A stretch of 64,000 bases of DNA from positions 62,001 through 126,000 of the forward strand of contig NZ_JAUSCF010000030.1 of assembly GCF_030651625.1 (NCBI RefSeq), read 5' to 3'. This DNA comes from Hydrogenophaga sp. Lineage in GTDB: Bacteria; Pseudomonadota; Gammaproteobacteria; Burkholderiales; Burkholderiaceae_C. The notes below the pieces were generated by a model, which had not been told where the DNA came from, made no database searches, and worked only from the letters and a program-made list of their open reading frames with translations. Shown in pieces: positions 7,989 to 62,847 of the stretch. The position numbers and the translations under genes were made by a program. Position 1 is the stretch's first letter. Every line of letters starts with the position of its first letter.

Positions 7989-8930
7989 TCAAACCAGGCC
8001 GACCATCACGCCGAGGAATACCGTAAACCCCAGCCAGTGATTCAGGCGGAAGGCCTTGAAGCAGCCTTCACGGGTGCGGTCTCTGATCAATGTGAAATGC
8101 CAGGCCACCTGGGCCAGGGCCACCAGCAACATGGCACCCCACACCCAGAGGTTCACCGTGCCCCAGAGCACTGCGCTCCAGATACCCAGAAACACCAGAT
8201 AGCAGCCAATCACGACGGGCACGTCCAGATCACCCAGGGTGATCGCCGAGGTTTTCATGCCGATCTTGAGATCGTCGTCGCGGTCCACCATGGCGTATTC
8301 GGTGTCGTAGGCGATCACCCAGAACAGGTTGCCGAGCATCAGCGCCCAGGCCAGGGGCGGCACGCTGTGCCATACACCTGGCCAGAAGCCGGGCGCCTGC
8401 CAGACTGCTGGCGCCATCAGCTCCCACATTGGCCCGCCATAGACCGCAGCAAAAGCCATGGGAATGCCGAAACTGAACGCCACGCCCAGCACCGCCTGCG
8501 GCATGGAAACCACTCGCTTCGCGTACGGGTAGACGATGGCCAGCACCAGCCCCAGGGCAGACCAGACGATGGTGGCCAGGTTGGTGGTGAGCACCAGCAG
8601 AAACGCCGTAAAAGCCAGTACCGCGCCCAACGTCAGCGCTTCTTTCACACCAATGCGCCCACTGGTCACGGGCCGCTGGGCGGTGCGCTTCACGTGCTTG
8701 TCAAACTCCCGATCGGCCACATCGTTGACACAGCAGCCGGCACTGCGCATGAGGATGGTGCCCAGCACGAACACCAGCAGCAGATGCACGCCAGGAAAAC
8801 CATCGGCCGCCACCCACAACGCCGAAAGCGAAGGCCACAGCAACAGCAGCCAGCCGGCCGGTCGATTCCAGCGGATCAGGTCGAGATAGAGGGCGAGCCG
8901 CGAAGGCGTGGGGGCCGTGGATGCAACCAT
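7989..8930 (-). CDS. ubiA: 4-hydroxybenzoate polyprenyltransferase
   Basis: Integral inner-membrane prenyltransferase that attaches the polyprenyl tail to 4-hydroxybenzoate in ubiquinone synthesis. The 313 residues match the usual UbiA length. Both aspartate-rich motifs are present: [19 protein letters not shown] at about 68-87 and [21 protein letters not shown] at about 205-225, which bind the prenyl diphosphate through magnesium. The rest is a run of hydrophobic helices (such as [13 protein letters not shown] and [11 protein letters not shown]). It is the third gene of the minus-strand run oxyR-dps-ubiA, separated from dps by 150 nt that contain a family A repeat. Confidence 0.97.
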
Positions 8931-8976
8931 GAAAAGAAACAGGAAAACGTGACTTCTTAAAACAGCGTATCCGGTG

Positions 8977-9078
8977 CGAAATGGCTGTGTCCAGAGATGC
9001 CGCGGAACTGGCTCCGCCAGGCCGCGGGCATCGCCCCCTTGAGGGGGTGACGCGCCTTCGGCGCGGCGCGGGGGTGTT
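8977..9078. repeat. Family A post-stop repeat, copy 1
   Basis: This copy contains the family core: a GGAAC-GGC-CC-GGC block, then ATCGCCCCCTTGAGGGGGTGACGC and a GC-rich end GGCGCGGGGGTG. The GGGGGTG end lies 2-6 nt from the dps stop codon (9081-9083, read on the minus strand), so in dps orientation the element begins straight after the stop. CCCCCTTGAGGGGG and GCGCCTTCGGCGC can form hairpins. Confidence 0.7.
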
Positions 9079-9080
9079 TT

Positions 9081-9584
9081 CTATTCTTCCAAAATCGAAC
9101 GCAACATCCACGCGGTCTGCTCGTGCACCGTCAGTCGCTGAGTGAGCAAGTCGGCCGTGGGCTCATCACCGGCCCTGTCCACCACGGGGAACAACTCGCG
9201 CGCCGTGCGGGCGACCGCTTCATGGCCCTGCACCAGGATGCGCACCATCTCCATCGCCTTGGGAGGCGCGGCCGGCGCGTCGGGCACCGAACTGAGCTTG
9301 CCAAACTGCGCATAGCTGCCCGGAGCCGAATGGCCCAGCGAACGGACGCGCTCGGCGATGGGGTCCACCGCGGTCCACAGTTCGGTGTACTGCGCCATGA
9401 ACATGGCGTGCAGCGAATTGAACATCGGGCCAGTCACGTTCCAGTGGAAGTTGTGCGTGGTCAGGTACAGGGTGTAGGTGTCGGCCAGCAGCTTGGACAG
9501 GCCTTTGGCAATGGCGGCGCGATCCTTTTCGCCGATGCCGATGTTGATGGGGGGCGCGGCGATCTTGCCGGTGGTTTTGGCCAT
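9081..9584 (-). CDS. dps: Dps-family DNA-protecting ferritin-like protein
   Basis: A 167-residue ferritin-fold protein that forms dodecamers, oxidises ferrous iron with peroxide and protects DNA. The Dps ferroxidase signature is visible in [22 protein letters not shown], followed by [19 protein letters not shown] with conserved D and E ligands. The N-terminal lysines (AKTTGK) may contact DNA. ATG 9584 is chosen: it has GGAG about 8 nt upstream, and the frame upstream of it encodes nothing Dps-like. It lies 32 nt after the oxyR stop on the same strand, so peroxide-dependent co-expression with OxyR is likely (inference). Confidence 0.95.
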
Positions 9585-9616
9585 GAAAAGCTCCAGGGTA
9601 ACGTTGAAAAAAGCAG

Positions 9617-10576
9617 TCAGGAGAGGCGTTTGACGCCCGGCAGCCGGCAGGCGTAAATCGCATTTCGAAGTTCGGCGATGGCCTCGTAGCGGGTGAAGCT
9701 GCGGCGCCATGCGAGCACGACGCGGCGGGTGGGCGCTTCGCCAGAGAACGGAAGGTAGCGCACATACGACGAATCGCCGAAGTCCTGCCCCGCATTGACA
9801 GCCCCTTCCAGCGCCGAGCTCGGCACGGAAAGACGCGGCACGAGGGTGATGCCCATGCCGGCAGCCACCATGTGCTTGATGGTTTCCAGCGAAGATCCTT
9901 CAAAGCTCTTGCGTATGCCTTCTGCGTCGTTGCTGAAGCGGGCGAATTCGGGACAGACCTCCAGCACGTGGTCGCGAAAACAATGGCCGGTGCCCAGCAG
10001 CAACATGGTCTCTTTCTTGATCTGTTCGGCTGTGATGTGACTTTGCTGGGCCAGGGGATGGGTGTGCGGCACGGCAGCCAGAAACGGTTCGTCGTACAGG
10101 GGCGCAATGGCCAGGTTGGTGTCGGGAAAGGGCTCGGCCAGAATGGCGCAATCAATCTCGCCCAGCCTAAGTTGCTCGAGCAACTTGACGGTGAAGTTCT
10201 CTTGCAGCATGAGGGGCATCTGCGGCGTGCGGTCGATCACCTGACGCACCAGGTCCGGCAACAGGTAGGGGCCGATCGTGTAAATCACACCCAGCTTGAG
10301 CGGCCCGGTCAGCGGGTCCTTGCCTCGTTTGGCGATCTCCTTGATGGCGGCGGCCTGCTCCAGGACCGTCTGCGCCTGGCGCACGATCTCCTCCCCCAGC
10401 GGCGTGACCGCGATTTCATTGGCATTGCGCTCGAACACCTTGAGTTCAAGCTCCTCTTCCAGCTTCTTGATGGCCACCGACAGTGTGGGCTGCGATACGA
10501 AGCAGGCCTCGGCCGCCTTGCCAAAATGCCGTTCACGAGCCACGGCCACGATGTACTTGAGTTCGGTCAGCGTCAT
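9617..10576 (-). CDS. oxyR: Hydrogen peroxide-sensing LysR regulator OxyR
   Basis: A 319-residue LysR-type regulator. The N-terminus [19 protein letters not shown] and helix-turn-helix [20 protein letters not shown] are characteristic of OxyR. The redox cysteines fall at C199 and C208 ([17 protein letters not shown]), the same numbering as in E. coli OxyR, so disulfide-based peroxide sensing should be intact. ATG 10576 fits the family N-terminus; the open frame upstream is not conserved. The next genes on this strand are dps and ubiA. A lipoprotein gene is divergent. Confidence 0.96.
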
Positions 10577-10710
10577 GGACACATTTTGCGCCATGAGCGA
10601 ATCGCTGACAAAAGCCGTTCGTTGCTGGTCCGCGCGATGGACTCTTCTATACTTTGCCGGTCGCGCTGGTTGAAAAGCCAGCACACCAACCCCTCAAGGA
10701 CCCCCCACTC

Positions 10711-11247
10711 ATGAACACCCGGACGTCCCTGCTGGCCTGCGTCAGCGCTGCCTTCCTTCTGGTCGCCTGTGGCGGCGGCTCCAGCAGCAGCTCCAATGAC
10801 GACAATGGATCGGGGACCGCACCTGGCGAAACGGCGGACAAATACGCGGGCAGTTGGCGCACCGAATGCCGGGAAGACTACGCGGTGGGTGAAAATCCGG
10901 CATTCCCTGGCGGCCGGTCCCAGTTCACGGGGTTGGTGCTGGCAAAAACGGGCGCGACCGCCATGAACTTTGCCCAGAATACGGCCGAATACGAAACCCC
11001 GGATTGCAGTGGTCCGCGCACCGCGCTGTTCACCAGCCGCGGCACGGTCACACTTGATGGCGGCAAGCGGATCGGCAATGTGCAGACCGACAGGGCCACC
11101 TTCACCACCACATCAGGCCCGGTGGTGATTGGCAAGGTCCTGCTCTGGGTCAACACTGGCCTGCTCTACAAGGGCACACAAGCGCCCCGAGATGCCCAGG
11201 GTTACCCCAACCAGATGGAAACGAACGAGCCCTGGTCGCCCATCTGA
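10711..11247 (+). CDS. Small secreted lipoprotein of unknown function
   Basis: A 178-residue predicted lipoprotein. A basic N-terminus and hydrophobic stretch lead to lipobox LVAC with C20 as the lipidated residue. A low-complexity tether (GGGSSSSSNDDNGSG) follows, then a globular domain with paired cysteines (TECRED, TPDCSGP) and repeated Thr/Gly strands. I do not recognise a named domain. ATG 10711 is chosen because the signal peptide starts there and CAAGGA lies upstream. It is divergent from oxyR and ends at a strong terminator. Confidence 0.75.
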   Translation: MNTRTSLLACVSAAFLLVACGGGSSSSSNDDNGSGTAPGETADKYAGSWRTECREDYAVGENPAFPGGRSQFTGLVLAKTGATAMNFAQNTAEYETPDCSGPRTALFTSRGTVTLDGGKRIGNVQTDRATFTTTSGPVVIGKVLLWVNTGLLYKGTQAPRDAQGYPNQMETNEPWSPI

Positions 11248-11275
11248 GAAGGCTGGGTTCCCGGGCCTGACAATC

Positions 11276-11303
11276 AGCCCGCCACGTCAGGCGGGCTTTT
11301 TTT
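11276..11303 (+). terminator. Intrinsic terminator after the lipoprotein gene
   Basis: Stem AGCCCGCC (11276-11283) pairs with GGCGGGCT (11290-11297) across a 6-nt loop and runs into seven T residues. It lies between the lipoprotein gene and the convergent recG. Confidence 0.9.
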
Positions 11304-11337
11304 CGCCCTGGCCACTTTGGCAACGGGTCGCATTCGA

Positions 11338-13788
11338 TCAGGCCTTCAGGTACTCGCTGCGTGCGCCGAGCCAGCGGGCCACATGCTTTTGCGCTGCATC
11401 GGGGTGCTCTGCCAGCATCACGGGAGCGGCCGCGCGTGCCCAGGCCAGCAGATGGGTGTCGGTGGCGAGGTCCGCAAAACGCAGCAGCGCAGCCCCTGAC
11501 TGACGGGCGCCCAGAAATTCACCCGGCCCACGGATTTCCAGGTCGCGCCGGGCGATCTCGAAACCGTCGTGGGTCTCTGCCATGGCGCGCAGGCGCTCGC
11601 GTGCGGTTTCACCCAGACGCCCACCGTCTGGCGGCGTGTACATCAGCACGCAGGCCGAAGCAGCGGCGCCGCGCCCGACCCGGCCACGCAACTGGTGCAA
11701 CTGGCTCAGCCCAAACCGCTCGGCGTGTTCGATCACCATCAGCGAGGCATTGGGCACGTCCACGCCGACCTCGATCACGGTGGTGGACACCAGCACGCCC
11801 ATGTGACCGCTGGTGAAGAGCGACATCACCGCCTTTTTTTCTGCCACCGGCATGCGCGAGTGCAGCAGGCCCACGGTAACAGTAGCTCCCCCCTGCGCCG
11901 CTGACGCGGCTTCCCCCCTCTCTGGCGCGCCTTCGGCGCTGGGAGGGGGGACGCACCCTGTGGCCCGGCCAAGCCGGTTCCACGGGTGCCCTGGAACAAT
12001 GCCCTTCGCTCCGGAAAGGTTCGGCGCTCCGCCCTGCGCTGTTGACGCGGGTTCCCCTCTCTCTGGCGCGCCCTCGGGAGCCTTGGACACAAACGCCCCT
12101 CCCCGGAAAGGCACTGCCGGGCTGTTGAGCGCCGCATTGAGTTCGGCGTGCGTGGCGGTGGCGTTGGAAAGATCGATTGACTCGCTCTCTTCGATCAGTG
12201 GGCACACCCAGTACACCTGCCGGCCCTGCGCCACCTGGGCGCGGATGCGCTCGATCACCTCGGCGCGGCGGTTGTCGGACACGACCTTGGTGACGATCGG
12301 GGTGCGTCCCGGTGGCAGTTCGTCGATGGTGGAGACATCAAGGTCGGCGTAGTAGCTCATGGCGAGCGTTCTGGGAATGGGAGTGGCCGTCATCATGAGC
12401 AGATGGGGCTCCACCACGGTCGATGGCTCGCCGCGCGTGGCCGCATTCCCCCTCAAGGGGGAACCACCTTGCGGCCCGTTCTGAGCCGGTCGAGGCGCGC
12501 CATCGCCGCGGCTGTCAAAGACATCCGGTGTCGTCTTTGCTCGCAGCGCCAGCCGCTGCGCCACGCCAAACCGGTGCTGTTCGTCGATGATGGCCAGCGC
12601 CAGGTTGCGGAACTGAACCTGTTCCTGAATGACCGCGTGTGTGCCCACCACCAGCGCGGCTTCGCCACTGGCAATCAATGCCAGCATTTCGTTGCGCTGC
12701 TTCTTTTTCTGGCTGCCTGTGAGCCAGGCCACGCGTTTGCCTAGAGGTGCCAGCAGCGGCTCCAGCCAGCCGATCAGTTTGGCGAAGTGCTGTTCAGCCA
12801 GAATTTCGGTGGGGGCCATCAGCGCGCACTGCCAGCCGGCGTCAATGGCCACCGCCGCGGCCAGGGCCGCCACCACGGTCTTGCCCGATCCCACATCGCC
12901 TTGTAGCAGGCGGTGCATGGGCACCGGGCGGGCCAGGTCGGTGGCAATCTCTTCGCACACCCGGCGCTGTGCAGGGGTCAGGGCGAACGGCAGCGCACCC
13001 AGCAACTGTTCATGCAGGCCGCCGGGACGTGTGGTCAACGCCGGTGCGCGAAAGGCATCGCGTTCGCGCTTGGCCATGAGCTGCGACAGTTGTTGCGCCA
13101 GCAACTCTTCGGCCTTGAGGCGCTGCCAGGCCGGGTGGCTGCGGTCTTCCAGCGCAGCCATCGAGACATCGGGCGTGGGGTGGTGCAGACAGAACAGCGC
13201 CTCCCGCAACGAGCTCAAGGGTGCGCGCAGCCCACTCAAACTGTTTTGCAGGCTCTGCAACAGTTCGGGTGACAGGGTTTCGCTCAAATCGGCACGCTGC
13301 AGCCCTCCTGCCACCGCCTTGCGCAGGTAGGCCTGTGGAAGCTGGGCGCTGGTGGGGTAAACCGGGGTGAGCGCGTCAGGCAAGGCCCCACCTGCTGCAT
13401 GAAACGCCGGGTGCATCATGGTCCGGCCCATGAACCCACCTCGGATCTCGCCACGCACCCGCACCCGCGCGCCCACCGCCAACGCTTTTTGGTGCGATGG
13501 GTAAAAGGTGAAGAAACGCAGGGTGCAGGTGTCGGAGCCGTCGTCCAGCGTCACCAGCAGTTGCCGGCGCGGGCGCAGTGTGATTTCGCTGTGGGTGACC
13601 GTGCCCTCCACCTGCACCAACTCCCCCTCGCGCGCGTCGGCCAGCCGCACCACCCGGGTTTCGTCTTCGTAACGAAGCGGCAAGTGAAGCGCCAGGTCGA
13701 TGGCACGCTCCAGGCCCAGCTTGCGCAAGGCCTTCTGGGGTGCGGACAGCGCAGTCGTGGCGGGTTTGCCTTCGGCTTGGGCGGGCAT
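11338..13788 (-). CDS. recG: ATP-dependent DNA helicase RecG with two repeat-derived insertions
   Basis: RecG remodels stalled replication forks and branched recombination intermediates. It has an OB-fold wedge domain in the N-terminal half, Walker A GDVGSGKT, DEQH box IIDEQHRFG, TATPIPRTLAM, and the C-terminal part with QLHQLRGRVGRG. At 816 residues it is over 100 longer than typical RecG (about 690). The excess lies in two alanine/proline/glycine-rich segments. One, about 421-459, falls between RLALRAK and HLLMMTATP. The other, about 554-635, falls between HAELNAAL and VTVGLLHSRM. Their DNA belongs to dispersed repeats. The frame stays open and every helicase motif is intact, so the protein is probably functional (inference). 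Confidence 0.95.
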   Translation of the reverse strand: MPAQAEGKPATTALSAPQKALRKLGLERAIDLALHLPLRYEDETRVVRLADAREGELVQVEGTVTHSEITLRPRRQLLVTLDDGSDTCTLRFFTFYPSHQKALAVGARVRVRGEIRGGFMGRTMMHPAFHAAGGALPDALTPVYPTSAQLPQAYLRKAVAGGLQRADLSETLSPELLQSLQNSLSGLRAPLSSLREALFCLHHPTPDVSMAALEDRSHPAWQRLKAEELLAQQLSQLMAKRERDAFRAPALTTRPGGLHEQLLGALPFALTPAQRRVCEEIATDLARPVPMHRLLQGDVGSGKTVVAALAAAVAIDAGWQCALMAPTEILAEQHFAKLIGWLEPLLAPLGKRVAWLTGSQKKKQRNEMLALIASGEAALVVGTHAVIQEQVQFRNLALAIIDEQHRFGVAQRLALRAKTTPDVFDSRGDGAPRPAQNGPQGGSPLRGNAATRGEPSTVVEPHLLMMTATPIPRTLAMSYYADLDVSTIDELPPGRTPIVTKVVSDNRRAEVIERIRAQVAQGRQVYWVCPLIEESESIDLSNATATHAELNAALNSPAVPFRGGAFVSKAPEGAPERGEPASTAQGGAPNLSGAKGIVPGHPWNRLGRATGCVPPPSAEGAPERGEAASAAQGGATVTVGLLHSRMPVAEKKAVMSLFTSGHMGVLVSTTVIEVGVDVPNASLMVIEHAERFGLSQLHQLRGRVGRGAAASACVLMYTPPDGGRLGETARERLRAMAETHDGFEIARRDLEIRGPGEFLGARQSGAALLRFADLATDTHLLAWARAAAPVMLAEHPDAAQKHVARWLGARSEYLKA
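11882..12125 (-). repeat. Family A-like repeat translated inside recG (insert B)
   Basis: Read in the recG direction, the segment contains GTGGAACCGGCTTGGCCGG, then GGGTGCGTCCCCCCTCCC, then GCGCCAGAGAGGGGGG and CGCGTCAGCGGCGCAGGGG. The same order of blocks occurs at 53722-53813. Two related sub-copies give the twin peptides EGAPERGEPASTAQGGAP and EGAPERGEAASAAQGGAT. It sits in recG in the orientation opposite to the one it takes after stop codons. Confidence 0.7.
12410..12525 (-). repeat. Repeat-like segment translated inside recG (insert A)
   Basis: The recG-strand sequence holds GGCCGCAAGGTGG, then TTCCCCCTTGAGGGGGAA, then GCGGCCACGCGCGGC, with the CCCCCTTGAGGGGG hairpin core seen in the family A copies. 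It encodes about 39 residues (with PQGGSPLRGNAATRG) absent from other RecG proteins I know. Confidence 0.55.
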
Positions 13789-15991: not shown

Positions 15992-16025
15992 GAACGTTGC
16001 TCCAATTGATGGGGGTGATGTCTCC

Positions 16026-16124
16026 GGCGCGAAATGCCAAAGTCCAGGATGCGGTGGAACCGGCTTGCCGGGCCACTCGCATCGCCCCCTGCAGGGGGTG
16101 ACGCGAAGCGGCGCGGGGGTGGGC
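16026..16124. repeat. Family A post-stop repeat, copy 2
   Basis: This copy has GGTGGAACCGGCTTGCCGGG, then ATCGCCCCCTGCAGGGGGTG and a GCGGCGCGGGGGTGGG end. That end touches the stop codon of the oxygenase small-subunit gene at 16125, so the element follows the stop directly. Confidence 0.7.
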
Positions 16125-16619
16125 CTAGATGGGATAGATGATGGAATTGGGGATCATCTCGCTGTCGTAGATGCACAGCCGCTGAGCGAACTTCCATCCG
16201 CCGGACGTGGGAGCGACGATGTCGAAATAGCGCCCCACGTTGAACACGGTGCTCGGCCCGTCCAGCTTGGTGCGGAACACCGCATAGTTCGCTTCGCAAT
16301 GCAGCCGCCCTTCGTCCTCGACCTTCCGCACCACCGGCGCACCCACCACATGACGCTGGTAATAGGGGTCGTGGAACAGGGTTTCCTTGATGCCGTAGAC
16401 GCGATCGCGCAGCATGGCCTGGCTGTCGAACGCCAGCGTAGCCAGCGGAAAACCGCGCTCGAAGTTCTCGCGGGGTTGCAGCTTGTAGACACAGTCGGTG
16501 GTGAAAAAGGTGGGCCACAGGTCCCACTGGCCGCTGTCCACTGCGAGTGCGTAATCGGCGTAAAGGGTTTGCAAAGCCTGGTAGGTGGCGAAGTCCAGGG
16601 GCGGCGGCGTCGGGTTCAT
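16125..16619 (-). CDS. nagH: Ring-hydroxylating oxygenase small (beta) subunit, NagH-like
   Basis: A 164-residue beta subunit with the SnoaL/NTF2-like fold of aromatic ring-hydroxylating oxygenases; it has a structural role in the hexamer. Motifs [22 protein letters not shown]-type strands and the C-terminal [13 protein letters not shown] match the salicylate 5-hydroxylase small subunit as I remember it from Ralstonia sp. U2 NagH. The ATG overlaps the end of the alpha-subunit gene by 4 nt, so the two are coupled. The symbol is by similarity from memory and context; other salicylate- or anthranilate-type oxygenases are possible. Confidence 0.82.
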
Positions 16620-35583: not shown

Positions 35584-36044
35584 GTCTGGTTTCTTCCCGG
35601 CTTCGTCAAATGGCTTTGGGTATCTCAGGGCTCGCCCGTAGCGATGCATACGAGCCAAACCGGAGTCGACTGGCTGGAAATGGTCCGGCTGGAACCAATA
35701 TAAACCAGCCTTTCAGGCCTGCCGGCTGGAACACCTTCTTTCGTACCGCAGTCGCGCTGGATGGCAGGCAGGCCCTCGCCACCATGGAAGCACAAGAGGC
35801 AGCTCAGGAGCGTTCGAGCAAGCTCGCCACCCGTTCGTGCCGCCTTCGGCGCCCCCCCCGAGGGGGCGGCACAGGTGGTCCGGCGAAGCCGGCTCCGCGG
35901 TACCCCTGGGAGGGCTTCCCCTGCGTCGTCGGCGCCTGTTTCCTCCGGCTGCATGGCGACATGCGTCCGCTCTATCGCCGGGGCTGGCATGATGTCGGGC
36001 TTGCCAGAAACCGGGCACATCTCCTTCTTGCTTCACACGTCCAC
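35584..36044. other. 460-nt gap upstream of the proQ-like gene
   Basis: The plus frame from 35610 runs into the proQ-like gene but does not look coding before 36045. A direct repeat GGCTGGAA lies near 35681-35695, followed by an AT-rich AATATAAA that could be a -10. A family A-like repeat occupies 35835-35920. Confidence 0.45.
35835..35920. repeat. Family A-like repeat, copy in intergenic space
   Basis: On the minus strand it reads CCGCGGAGCCGGCTTCGCCGG, then a run with GCCCCCTCGGGGGGGGC and CGCCGAAGGCGGC, matching the block order of family A. It is the one copy not attached to a recognised stop codon, perhaps because the gene before it has been lost. Confidence 0.55.
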
Positions 36045-50154: not shown

Positions 50155-50249
50155 GAAGCACCCGGTTCTTCAGGCAAGCGCCGAAGGTGCTCAGGTGATG
50201 GCGCGCGGCGCGGCAGGATGACCCCATCCCTTTGCGGAGTGAAGTGACC

Positions 50250-50336
50250 CATTCCAGAGGCTCCGTCGGGCCGGCGCTACCGGACGACTGGTATCGCCCC
50301 CTTCAGGGGATGGCGCGCAAGCGCTGCGGGGGTGTG
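50250..50336. repeat. Family A post-stop repeat, copy 3
   Basis: The family core TATCGCCCCCTTCAGGGGATGGCGCG and the GCGGGGGTGTG end are present. The end touches the stop of the minus-strand aminotransferase (50337), so it follows that stop directly. The far end is divergent from the other copies. Confidence 0.65.
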
Positions 50337-51677
<1,341 letters not shown>

Positions 51678-53681: not shown

Positions 53682-53721
53682 ACCCAGGAGCAACCGGAGC
53701 GCGTGCCCCTGATCCAGGGCA

Positions 53722-53813
53722 GCCTTGGAACCGGCTTGCCGGGCCAAAGGGCTGCGTCCCCCTCCCGCCGCAGGCGAGAGAGGGGGAAGACGCGTCAGCG
53801 ACGCAGGGGGTGC
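53722..53813. repeat. Family A post-stop repeat, copy 4 (long GC-variant)
   Basis: Read on the plus strand: GGAACCGGCTTGCCGGGCC, GGGCTGCGTCCCCCTCCCGC, GAGAGAGGGGGAAG, CGCGTCAGCGACGCAGGGGG. The GGGGGTGC end touches the stop of the minus-strand Hsp20 gene (53814). The same block order occurs in recG insert B. Confidence 0.7.
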
Positions 53814-54242
53814 TCACTCTATATTCAGGCGCTGCCCCGCCAGGGCCACCTTTTTGGGAAGGGTCAGCGTCAACACCCCGTTTTCATACTTGGCGCGGGC
53901 ATTCTGGTTGTCAATGTCGGTCGCCAGCTGAAAGCTGCGAGACACCGCGCCGTAATAGCGCTCGGTGCGCAAAACCTTCTCGTCCTGGCGCTGGCTGTCC
54001 TCCTGCTTGATCTCGGCGCGCAGGGTCACCACGCTGCCCTCGACCGTCACATGAATGTCCTCCCTGGGCACGCCGGGCACCTCAGCCACCACCGTGTAGA
54101 CCGACGGGGTTTCCTTCACGTCGATCTTTATCTGGGACGGCGACGGAAGGGAATCCCCGTGCAAGGGACGGACAAAAAACCCCGGAGCGACATCCTTGAA
54201 GAAGTCGTCGAGCAAACCGGAACGGGTGATCACATGGTTCAT
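53814..54242 (-). CDS. Small heat-shock protein, Hsp20 family
   Basis: A 142-residue alpha-crystallin-type holdase chaperone. The core domain is about 38-142: IKIDVKETPSVYTVVAEVPGV, REDIHVTVEGSVVTLRAE, FQLATDIDNQNARAKYENGVLTLTLPKK. The N-terminus LLDDFFKDVAPGFFVRP is the usual oligomerisation part. ATG 54242 follows AAGGAG. The upstream CTTGAAA could belong to a heat-shock sigma-32 promoter. Divergent from the glcD-like gene. Confidence 0.93.
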   Translation of the reverse strand: MNHVITRSGLLDDFFKDVAPGFFVRPLHGDSLPSPSQIKIDVKETPSVYTVVAEVPGVPREDIHVTVEGSVVTLRAEIKQEDSQRQDEKVLRTERYYGAVSRSFQLATDIDNQNARAKYENGVLTLTLPKKVALAGQRLNIE

Positions 54243-62222: not shown

Positions 62223-62340
62223 GCGCAAGATTCTGCGACGGTCCGGCAGTGGCTGGGGTCAATCTTGCGACAGGGAGCGCATACGACGTCCAGTCAGACT
62301 AGTTGCTCCACCTCGCAGCCACGACCCACGACGCATGCAA

Positions 62341-62413
62341 CGGTCCCATCCAGGGGAACCGCCGAGTCGGCTTTGCCGGACGGCCAGTGCCGCCCCCTAG
62401 GAGGTGGCGCGAA
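62341..62413. repeat. Family A repeat, copy 5 (partial)
   Basis: GAGTCGGCTTTGCCGGACGGCC and GCCGCCCCCTAGGAGGTGGCGCGAAGCG follow the family A block order. It is a second, degenerate unit next to copy 6, in the same orientation. Confidence 0.6.
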
Positions 62414-62430
62414 GCGAGGGTTACTCATGC

Positions 62431-62532
62431 TGCGGCGCGAAATGCCTCTTCCAGAGATGCCGTGGAACCGGCTTTGCCGGGCCACTGGTATCGCCCCCTT
62501 GGGGTGACGCGAAGCGGCGCGGGGGGGAGTTT
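62431..62532. repeat. Family A post-stop repeat, copy 6
   Basis: CCGTGGAACCGGCTTTGCCGG, then GGTATCGCCCCCTTGGGGTGACGC and GAAGCGGCGCGGGGGGGAG. The end lies about 8 nt from the stop of the minus-strand RRM-like gene (62539). Confidence 0.7.
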
Positions 62533-62538
62533 CATCTC

Positions 62539-62847
62539 TCAGTCGTACATGTTGGAGTCGGCCCACTGGGATGAAGGCCCGTCATCGTCGGAAGTCACAG
62601 CCACATTCAGATTGAGCACAAACACGACTTCTCCCCCGAATCGCCCCACGCCCAAGGTCTTCATGAGCTGCTGCTCCTGCTCCGGACGTTCCATGCGCAG
62701 GAAGCAGATCGCCTGCTTGGTTCCCTCGTGCATGGCGGTGAGAATGTCCAGCCGGGTGATGCGGCCGAACTCGCTGCACAGCTGGTGCAACGAAGACTTC
62801 AAGCTGGCCACATCGCTGTGGCGCCGGAGTTCTGCAAGCGCGGTCAT
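62539..62847 (-). CDS. Small RRM-like protein
   Basis: A 102-residue protein. The middle fits a ferredoxin-like/RRM pattern: LCSEFGRITRLDILTAMHEG followed by KQAICFLRMERPEQEQQLMKTL, that is, helix-strand-strand-helix. The tail is acidic and polar (SDDDGPSSQWADSNMYD). RNA binding is plausible but unproven. ATG 62847 has a weak AGGGGT upstream; TTG 62853 is also possible. It is divergent from the PAS protein at the right edge. Two family A repeats follow its stop. Confidence 0.72.
   Translation of the reverse strand: MTALAELRRHSDVASLKSSLHQLCSEFGRITRLDILTAMHEGTKQAICFLRMERPEQEQQLMKTLGVGRFGGEVVFVLNLNVAVTSDDDGPSSQWADSNMYD

Follow-up and report, generated by a model that had tools for sequence, protein, structure and literature searches.

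Dispersed hairpin repeats in the open frame of recG, at two loops of the helicase in Hydrogenophaga and other Comamonadaceae

In-frame repeats in bacterial repair genes are already on record. Passages of Di Nocera et al. 2013 (PMC3733652) describe intragenic GTAG/CGTC REPs, many of which reside in replication and repair genes; the tagged repair genes include those for UvrABC, UvrD, polymerase I, RecBCD and DnaE2, and in many species replication and repair genes are the sole genes tagged. The same passages report different REPs at about the same recB site in two Xanthomonas species, speculate on mutator effects, and suggest that location in loops may render the insertions neutral. The word RecG is absent from the text of that article (supplementary gene list aside). 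Rickettsia palindromic elements (RPEs) are palindromic DNA of up to about 150 bp that is inserted in frame into genes whose proteins are likely functional (passages of PMC10969869 and PMC3733652). The REPs of Escherichia coli are placed, in the relevant part of PMC12306157, within 15 nt of the stop codon. Among the literature matches listed, none was recognised that concerns the repeats described below (F1 to F6) or repeat inserts in RecG, RecG was not found as a recurrent repeat host, and PMC2755013 deals with CRISPR only and holds nothing on these repeats.

The DNA analysed here (the window) is a stretch of 64,000 nucleotides from Hydrogenophaga sp., whose genome comprises 4.27 Mb in 39 contigs. 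Its recG gene carries two inserts, and both derive from one dispersed multi-hairpin superfamily, here named F1. The features of the gene are as follows.

11338..13788, minus strand: recG, ATP-dependent DNA helicase of 816 amino acids with two repeat-derived inserts (open reading frame and domain matches)
12412..12534, minus strand: site 1 insert, residues about 419-459, F1 subtype B, read antisense
12431..12490, element sense strand plus: F1-B element core with the CCCCCTCAAGGGGG hairpin (E 2e-4)
11881..12126, minus strand: site 2 insert, residues about 555-636, F1 subtype A, read antisense to the element
11882..12021, element sense strand plus: F1-A unit 1 (nhmmer E 7e-37)
12027..12077, element sense strand plus: F1-A unit 2, partial (nhmmer E 6e-7; BLASTN 88% over 52)

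RecG passes the NCBIfam model PRK10917.1-4 (1118.8 bits; cut-off 864), and the Pfam wedge, DEAD, Helicase_C and RecG_dom3_C domains are all found. The preliminary description had the protein longer than usual by two inserts, and alignment to the 693-residue RecG of PDB entry 9wm0 agrees: about 115 extra residues lie in the helicase half, in unmatched stretches at about 418-460 and about 554-637, where residues 418 and 460 adjoin chain residues 413 and 420 (site 1) and residues 554 and 637 adjoin 515 and 518 (site 2). Its designation of RecG as an essential-type protein was too strong, as RecG is dispensable in E. coli.

The search models used on recG were built with recG left out, F1-A from 58 other units of the same genome and F1-B from 44 B copies. 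Site 1 is the weaker of the window's two sites, with an E value of only 2e-4 for the B model, which also picks up recG's A copy (E 1e-11). The site 2 insert contains a full F1-A unit, a partial second unit at a spacing of 141 bp (47 codons) and a third part that resembles the tail of a single element in related species; elsewhere site 2 holds one element in each of three related species, to which the window adds the partial second unit. Several sequence details noticed earlier were recovered, namely the CCCCCTTGAGGGGG core in site 1 (12448-12461), the two copies of the peptide EGAPERGE(P/A)AS(T/A)AQGGA (residues 572-588 and 619-635), and the kinship of the second insert with the intergenic repeat near 53722-53813, for which BLASTN gives 81% over 127 columns (E 7e-25, against 53694-53810).

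F1 is a structured hairpin element in which base pairs are kept by two-sided changes. Units measure about 100-145 bp (about 140 bp in subtype A) and form several hairpins, of which the second distinguishes the subtypes, being long in A, as in site 2, and short in B, as in site 1; some copies form tandem arrays with a period of about 130-141 bp. RNAalifold gives F1-A a multi-hairpin fold with double-sided changes in 9 of 27 pairs for 41 of the 57 listed units, 16 having been dropped by choice (mostly for a shortened second hairpin) and the kinship of copies being uncontrolled. In hairpin III such changes affect three pairs, in 16, 11 and 16 sequences respectively. Rfam assigns no family to any part of the window at the gathering cut-off; two sub-threshold matches of 19-20 bits fall within 8900-12600. 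In the same genome BLASTN finds at least 62 matches to the site 2 DNA (40 of 232 candidates scored), and the CCCCCTTGAGGGGG core, with one mismatch allowed, gives 72 + 76 strand matches, self-complementary variants being scored on both strands, against 0 + 0 for the reversed pattern. Of 29 genomes searched, 28 contain F1, with identical places in two of them. In the window, the copies outside recG are the following.

8967..9110, minus strand: F1-B copy, intergenic, in post-stop orientation; a member of the B model
16020..16127, minus strand: F1-B copy, intergenic, at the end of a minus-strand gene
35852..35912, plus strand: partial F1, intergenic; no neighbour ends towards the copy on its strand
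50228..50346, minus strand: F1-B copy, intergenic, at the end of a minus-strand gene
53689..53814, minus strand: F1-A copy between convergent genes, at the end of the minus-strand gene
62332..62427, minus strand: F1 copy adjoining the 62431..62548 copy
62431..62548, minus strand: F1 copy at the end of a minus-strand gene

The usual place of F1 is shortly past a stop codon. Stretches of the same genome amounting to 377 kb, picked for repeats, contain 168 copies (E up to 1e-5). With recG and the 12 copies at stretch edges excluded, 142 of 154 follow a gene end or stop codon of their own strand, at a distance of no more than 60 nt in 93 cases, and 12 lack this placement. Only two of the 168 are intragenic, both at site 2 of recG (the weaker site 1 copy came from a separate search). 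Likewise, 39 of 44 same-strand F1-A runs with their start covered begin within 40 nt past an own-strand gene end, 28 of these within 12 nt, and the single intragenic run among the 44 is that of recG, on the opposite strand; 38 of 45 exact F1-B cores (from 40 loci and the window) have a facing gene end within 80 nt, and the one intragenic core is again that of recG, antisense. All three copies in recG thus run antisense to the usual post-stop orientation, as had been observed beforehand. This orientation is hardly explained by the reading frame, because in the sense direction, too, F1 can mostly be read without a stop: stop codons are absent from the three antisense frames of a 120-nt core in 47, 54 and 53 of 59 units, and from the three sense frames in 49, 20 and 53. 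Gene ends were called with a simple codon model trained on 29 open reading frames of the window, which placed no F1 inside genes other than recG in these stretches. Other genes of this genome with in-frame F1 were considered, and the long frames spanning copies were judged by eye to be in the wrong frame; the long open frames at C26, C3, C36 and C6 held no in-gene copy (E up to 1e-5). The distance of F1 from the stop codon and its fixed orientation would bring it near enough for an effect on translation like that reported for E. coli REPs.

As far as the cited passages go, F1 resembles GTAG/CGTC REPs in being a hairpin repeat mostly downstream of genes with some copies in a repair gene, but differs in its greater length and in having no constant GTAG or CGTC tag. 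With the REPs of E. coli, as excerpted, it shares hairpins a few bases past the stop codon, yet the F1 unit extends over about 140 bp, forms several hairpins and resides in a betaproteobacterium. F1 is REP-like in placement, having the high copy number and the intergenic, mostly downstream position of REPs; it is not classed as a RAYT-mobilised REP, because both a constant tag and a linked transposase fail. No constant tag was seen by eye at the starts of F1-A in 44 runs. The genome has one Y1_Tnp (RAYT-like) match, a 241-residue frame at G000:C34:30239-30523 (L161), and its 3.3-kb locus returned nothing significant for F1, although a more divergent RAYT may escape such detection. From the earlier view of a mobile or spreading repeat the dispersed copies stand; active mobility is unsupported because the only Y1 transposase locus has no F1 copy, and that the repeats move is no more than probable. 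The earlier comparison with Rickettsia was apt in that dispersed-repeat DNA lies in the open frame of an otherwise intact recG, and the likeness to RPEs, as these are described in part above, would be one of mode of working. RPEs enter many unrelated genes per genome, whereas F1, mainly a post-stop element, is intragenic only in recG among its 168 copies.

The two loops are occupied by repeats in other Comamonadaceae as well. In 110 RecGs (that of the window and 109 further loci, some from duplicate genomes) most loops measure 5-23 residues at site 1 and 10-19 at site 2, the rest being longer. A recognised repeat is present in 34 of 92 distinct RecGs (27 at site 1 and 9 at site 2), or in 30 (22 and 9) when the weak family F6 and the hand-set row L076 are left out; 58 have none. 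Among the Hydrogenophaga carriers, H. palleronii strain NBRC 102513 has its insert at site 2. The loci named here were ranked by similarity to the insert-bearing query, and carriers were detected via open frames, so that broken recG copies would escape. Within the genus, 28 of 35 genomes, the best-scoring ones, yielded a recG locus; a repeat occurs at site 1 in 8 of 28, at site 2 in 1 of 27 readable loci, at either in 9 of 28, and at neither in 19 of 28. Stop-to-stop frames without a recognised insert have 706-737 codons in 17 of these 19, and the remaining two (875 and 886 codons) have their excess outside both loops. The inserts are not the conserved lineage-specific loops that the preliminary description named as its refuting case: neither loop carries a recognised repeat in 19 of 28 same-genus loci, and repeats elsewhere in the genome match the DNA of the inserts. 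The families recognised are as follows.

F1, antisense: the window, several Hydrogenophaga, and L071 and L107 (under other titles)
F1, sense: L063, L064
F2: TTCGACAGGCTCAGCC repeats
F3, a Comamonadaceae repeat, at site 1: L103, L115, L122, L132
F3 at site 2: L067, L070; in the opposite orientation L065, L066, L129
F4, dRS3-like: L079
F5, a pair of Pseudomonas-type REPs: L131
F6, short: L065, L119, L123, L126

F4 is presumably akin to dRS3 and F5 to the Pseudomonas REP, and F1 and F3 are similar in layout. Most of these families recur outside recG in the carriers' own genomes. F1 and F2 do so in the Hydrogenophaga carriers searched (for L071 and L107 by totals only), F3 in seven of nine carriers (L065, L066, L067, L070, L103, L115 and L129), while in L122 and L132 it has one place among the matches listed, taken to be that of recG itself. 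F4 has 31 places in its carrier including that of recG, with none for the control, and F5 has three besides recG. F6 is a weak case, with 0, 2 and 3 places outside recG in three of its four carriers.

Whatever the tree, at least seven insertion events are needed at site 1 (at least six without F6) and at least three at site 2, because families or orientations differ. Judged by sequence, this is not one entry: the loop pair was entered by several repeat families in different species. On a FastTree phylogeny of 92 RecG cores (37 of 89 inner branches starred), site 1 needs at least 21 state changes and site 2 at least 15 when unexplained long loops are counted as a state. The four F1 inserts at site 2 have orientation and boundaries in common and their carriers are non-sister on this weakly supported tree, which could mean one old insertion followed by losses, or exchange of recG. 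Relative to the cases in the cited part of PMC3733652, RecG is peculiar in that the same two loops of a single protein house several repeat families across the Comamonadaceae.

Tolerated in-frame entry of selfish F1 DNA into RecG loops, recurrent across the Comamonadaceae, is very probably the best explanation. F1, from its usual place shortly past stop codons, would have inserted into two loop-coding positions of recG; being antisense and in an open frame, it would leave a RecG that survives with added linkers, and the same loops of other Comamonadaceae would have received F1 in both orientations as well as at least four other repeat families. Intragenic copies would be rare elsewhere most simply through purging, and those in recG would last as both loops tolerate stop-free linkers. 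RecG thus appears to be a place where selfish DNA has settled time and again and been tolerated, with inserts that are presumably translated and harmless.

The position of the inserts fits this reading. In sequence, site 1 separates helicase motif II from motif III, and site 2 separates the helix following motif IV from the next strand; in an AlphaFold model of RecG, site 1 is flanked by helix 408-419 and by strand 462-467, site 2 by helix 541-555 and by strand 639-642, and the inserts contain no helices. Built from 31 sequences, the model has a mean pLDDT of 68.7 and is of fair to poor quality, and low pLDDT in the inserts does not prove disorder because conserved helicase parts also score below 50.

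An unlikely alternative is that recG is a true hot spot, where mobilising enzymes have a target-site or replication-linked preference that goes beyond tolerance. It would account for the sharing of two spots by several distinct families and for the confinement of intragenic F1 to recG among 168 copies, and a control on neighbouring genes speaks in the same direction. In 92 recG loci spanning 631 kb with 468 other genes, called with the same codon model, F1 alone gives 14 matches in recG, 16 in intergenic DNA and none in the other genes. All families together give 35 matches in recG (33 loci), 34 of them at the two sites and one near the frame start (L099), and outside recG 17 intergenic matches, one across a gene end and two in other genes, both queA; F2 to F6 were defined from recG inserts, so that their excess in recG is partly built in, whereas F1 was defined independently of recG. 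A preference of this kind sits poorly with the sequence flanking the sites, which varies between species, and with the queA genes near recG (L065:140-1297 and, on the minus strand, L070:1643-2827), which carry in-frame F3, at a different loop in each of the two species, and both pass the NCBIfam QueA cut-off. Moreover, recurrence at the most permissive loops is already predicted by tolerance. Purging, and not target choice, would then be behind the pattern.

That the inserts alter RecG activity, as a mutator or through changed fork processing, and are kept by selection is improbable. RecG would be one more case beside the many intragenic REPs that passages of PMC3733652 report in replication and repair genes, but the inserts vary freely between species, 58 of 92 rows are without a recognised repeat, and divergence within the inserts is near-even over codon positions. 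At positions 1, 2 and 3 it amounts to 0.12, 0.16 and 0.20 for F1 at site 2, 0.22, 0.20 and 0.30 for F1 at site 1, 0.25, 0.22 and 0.24 for F2, 0.22, 0.11 and 0.17 for F3, and 0.09, 0.09 and 0.08 for F6, while the flanking core of the same rows has 0.06-0.09, 0.02-0.05 and 0.21-0.40, mainly at position 3. By these plain counts the divergence leans to tolerance. A related idea starts from the action of RecG on stalled forks and hairpin-rich DNA; because of it, hairpin-repeat copies in recG might feed back on repeat spread or genome stability, so that the families are drawn and kept there, which we regard as very doubtful.

Ordinary lineage-specific low-complexity loops that resemble repeats through GC-rich composition are scarcely credible: the inserts are rich in Ala, Pro and Gly and eight loops of at least 25 residues in 92 rows match no recognised repeat, but the held-out models refute the idea for site 2 (E 7e-37 and 6e-7), and, although site 1 of the window is a weaker case (E 2e-4), a composition artefact is ruled out by these models together with the absence of reversed-pattern matches, and clear members of other repeats sit at the same place in related species.

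On tolerated entry, a conserved repair helicase would repeatedly have gained coding sequence from intergenic repeat DNA, each time at one of two places, and this outside Rickettsia. Some 30 carriers, their empty relatives and several repeat families make the published puzzle of in-frame REPs in repair genes testable in terms of tolerance, target choice and selection, and two natural insertion-permissive loops of RecG can be named.

Several observations concern single loci. Several matches to RecG on draft contigs start or stop at residues about 550-554 or 608-637, which is site 2 (L036/L094 and L103; also G033:C35:69, G004:C223:119 and G031:C532), as if a repeat there had split some assemblies, and such carriers would drop from the counts. 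Long loops matching no recognised repeat are found at site 2 in L063, L064, L068, L073, L077, L083, L100 and L114 and at site 1 in L108; further unrecognised repeats may lie inside them. In L131 (Pseudomonadota bacterium S5R_St_7, with a Comamonadaceae-like RecG), where site 1 is the occupied loop, the genome has further copies of the Pseudomonas-type REP GTGGGAGCGGGCTTGCCCGCGA.
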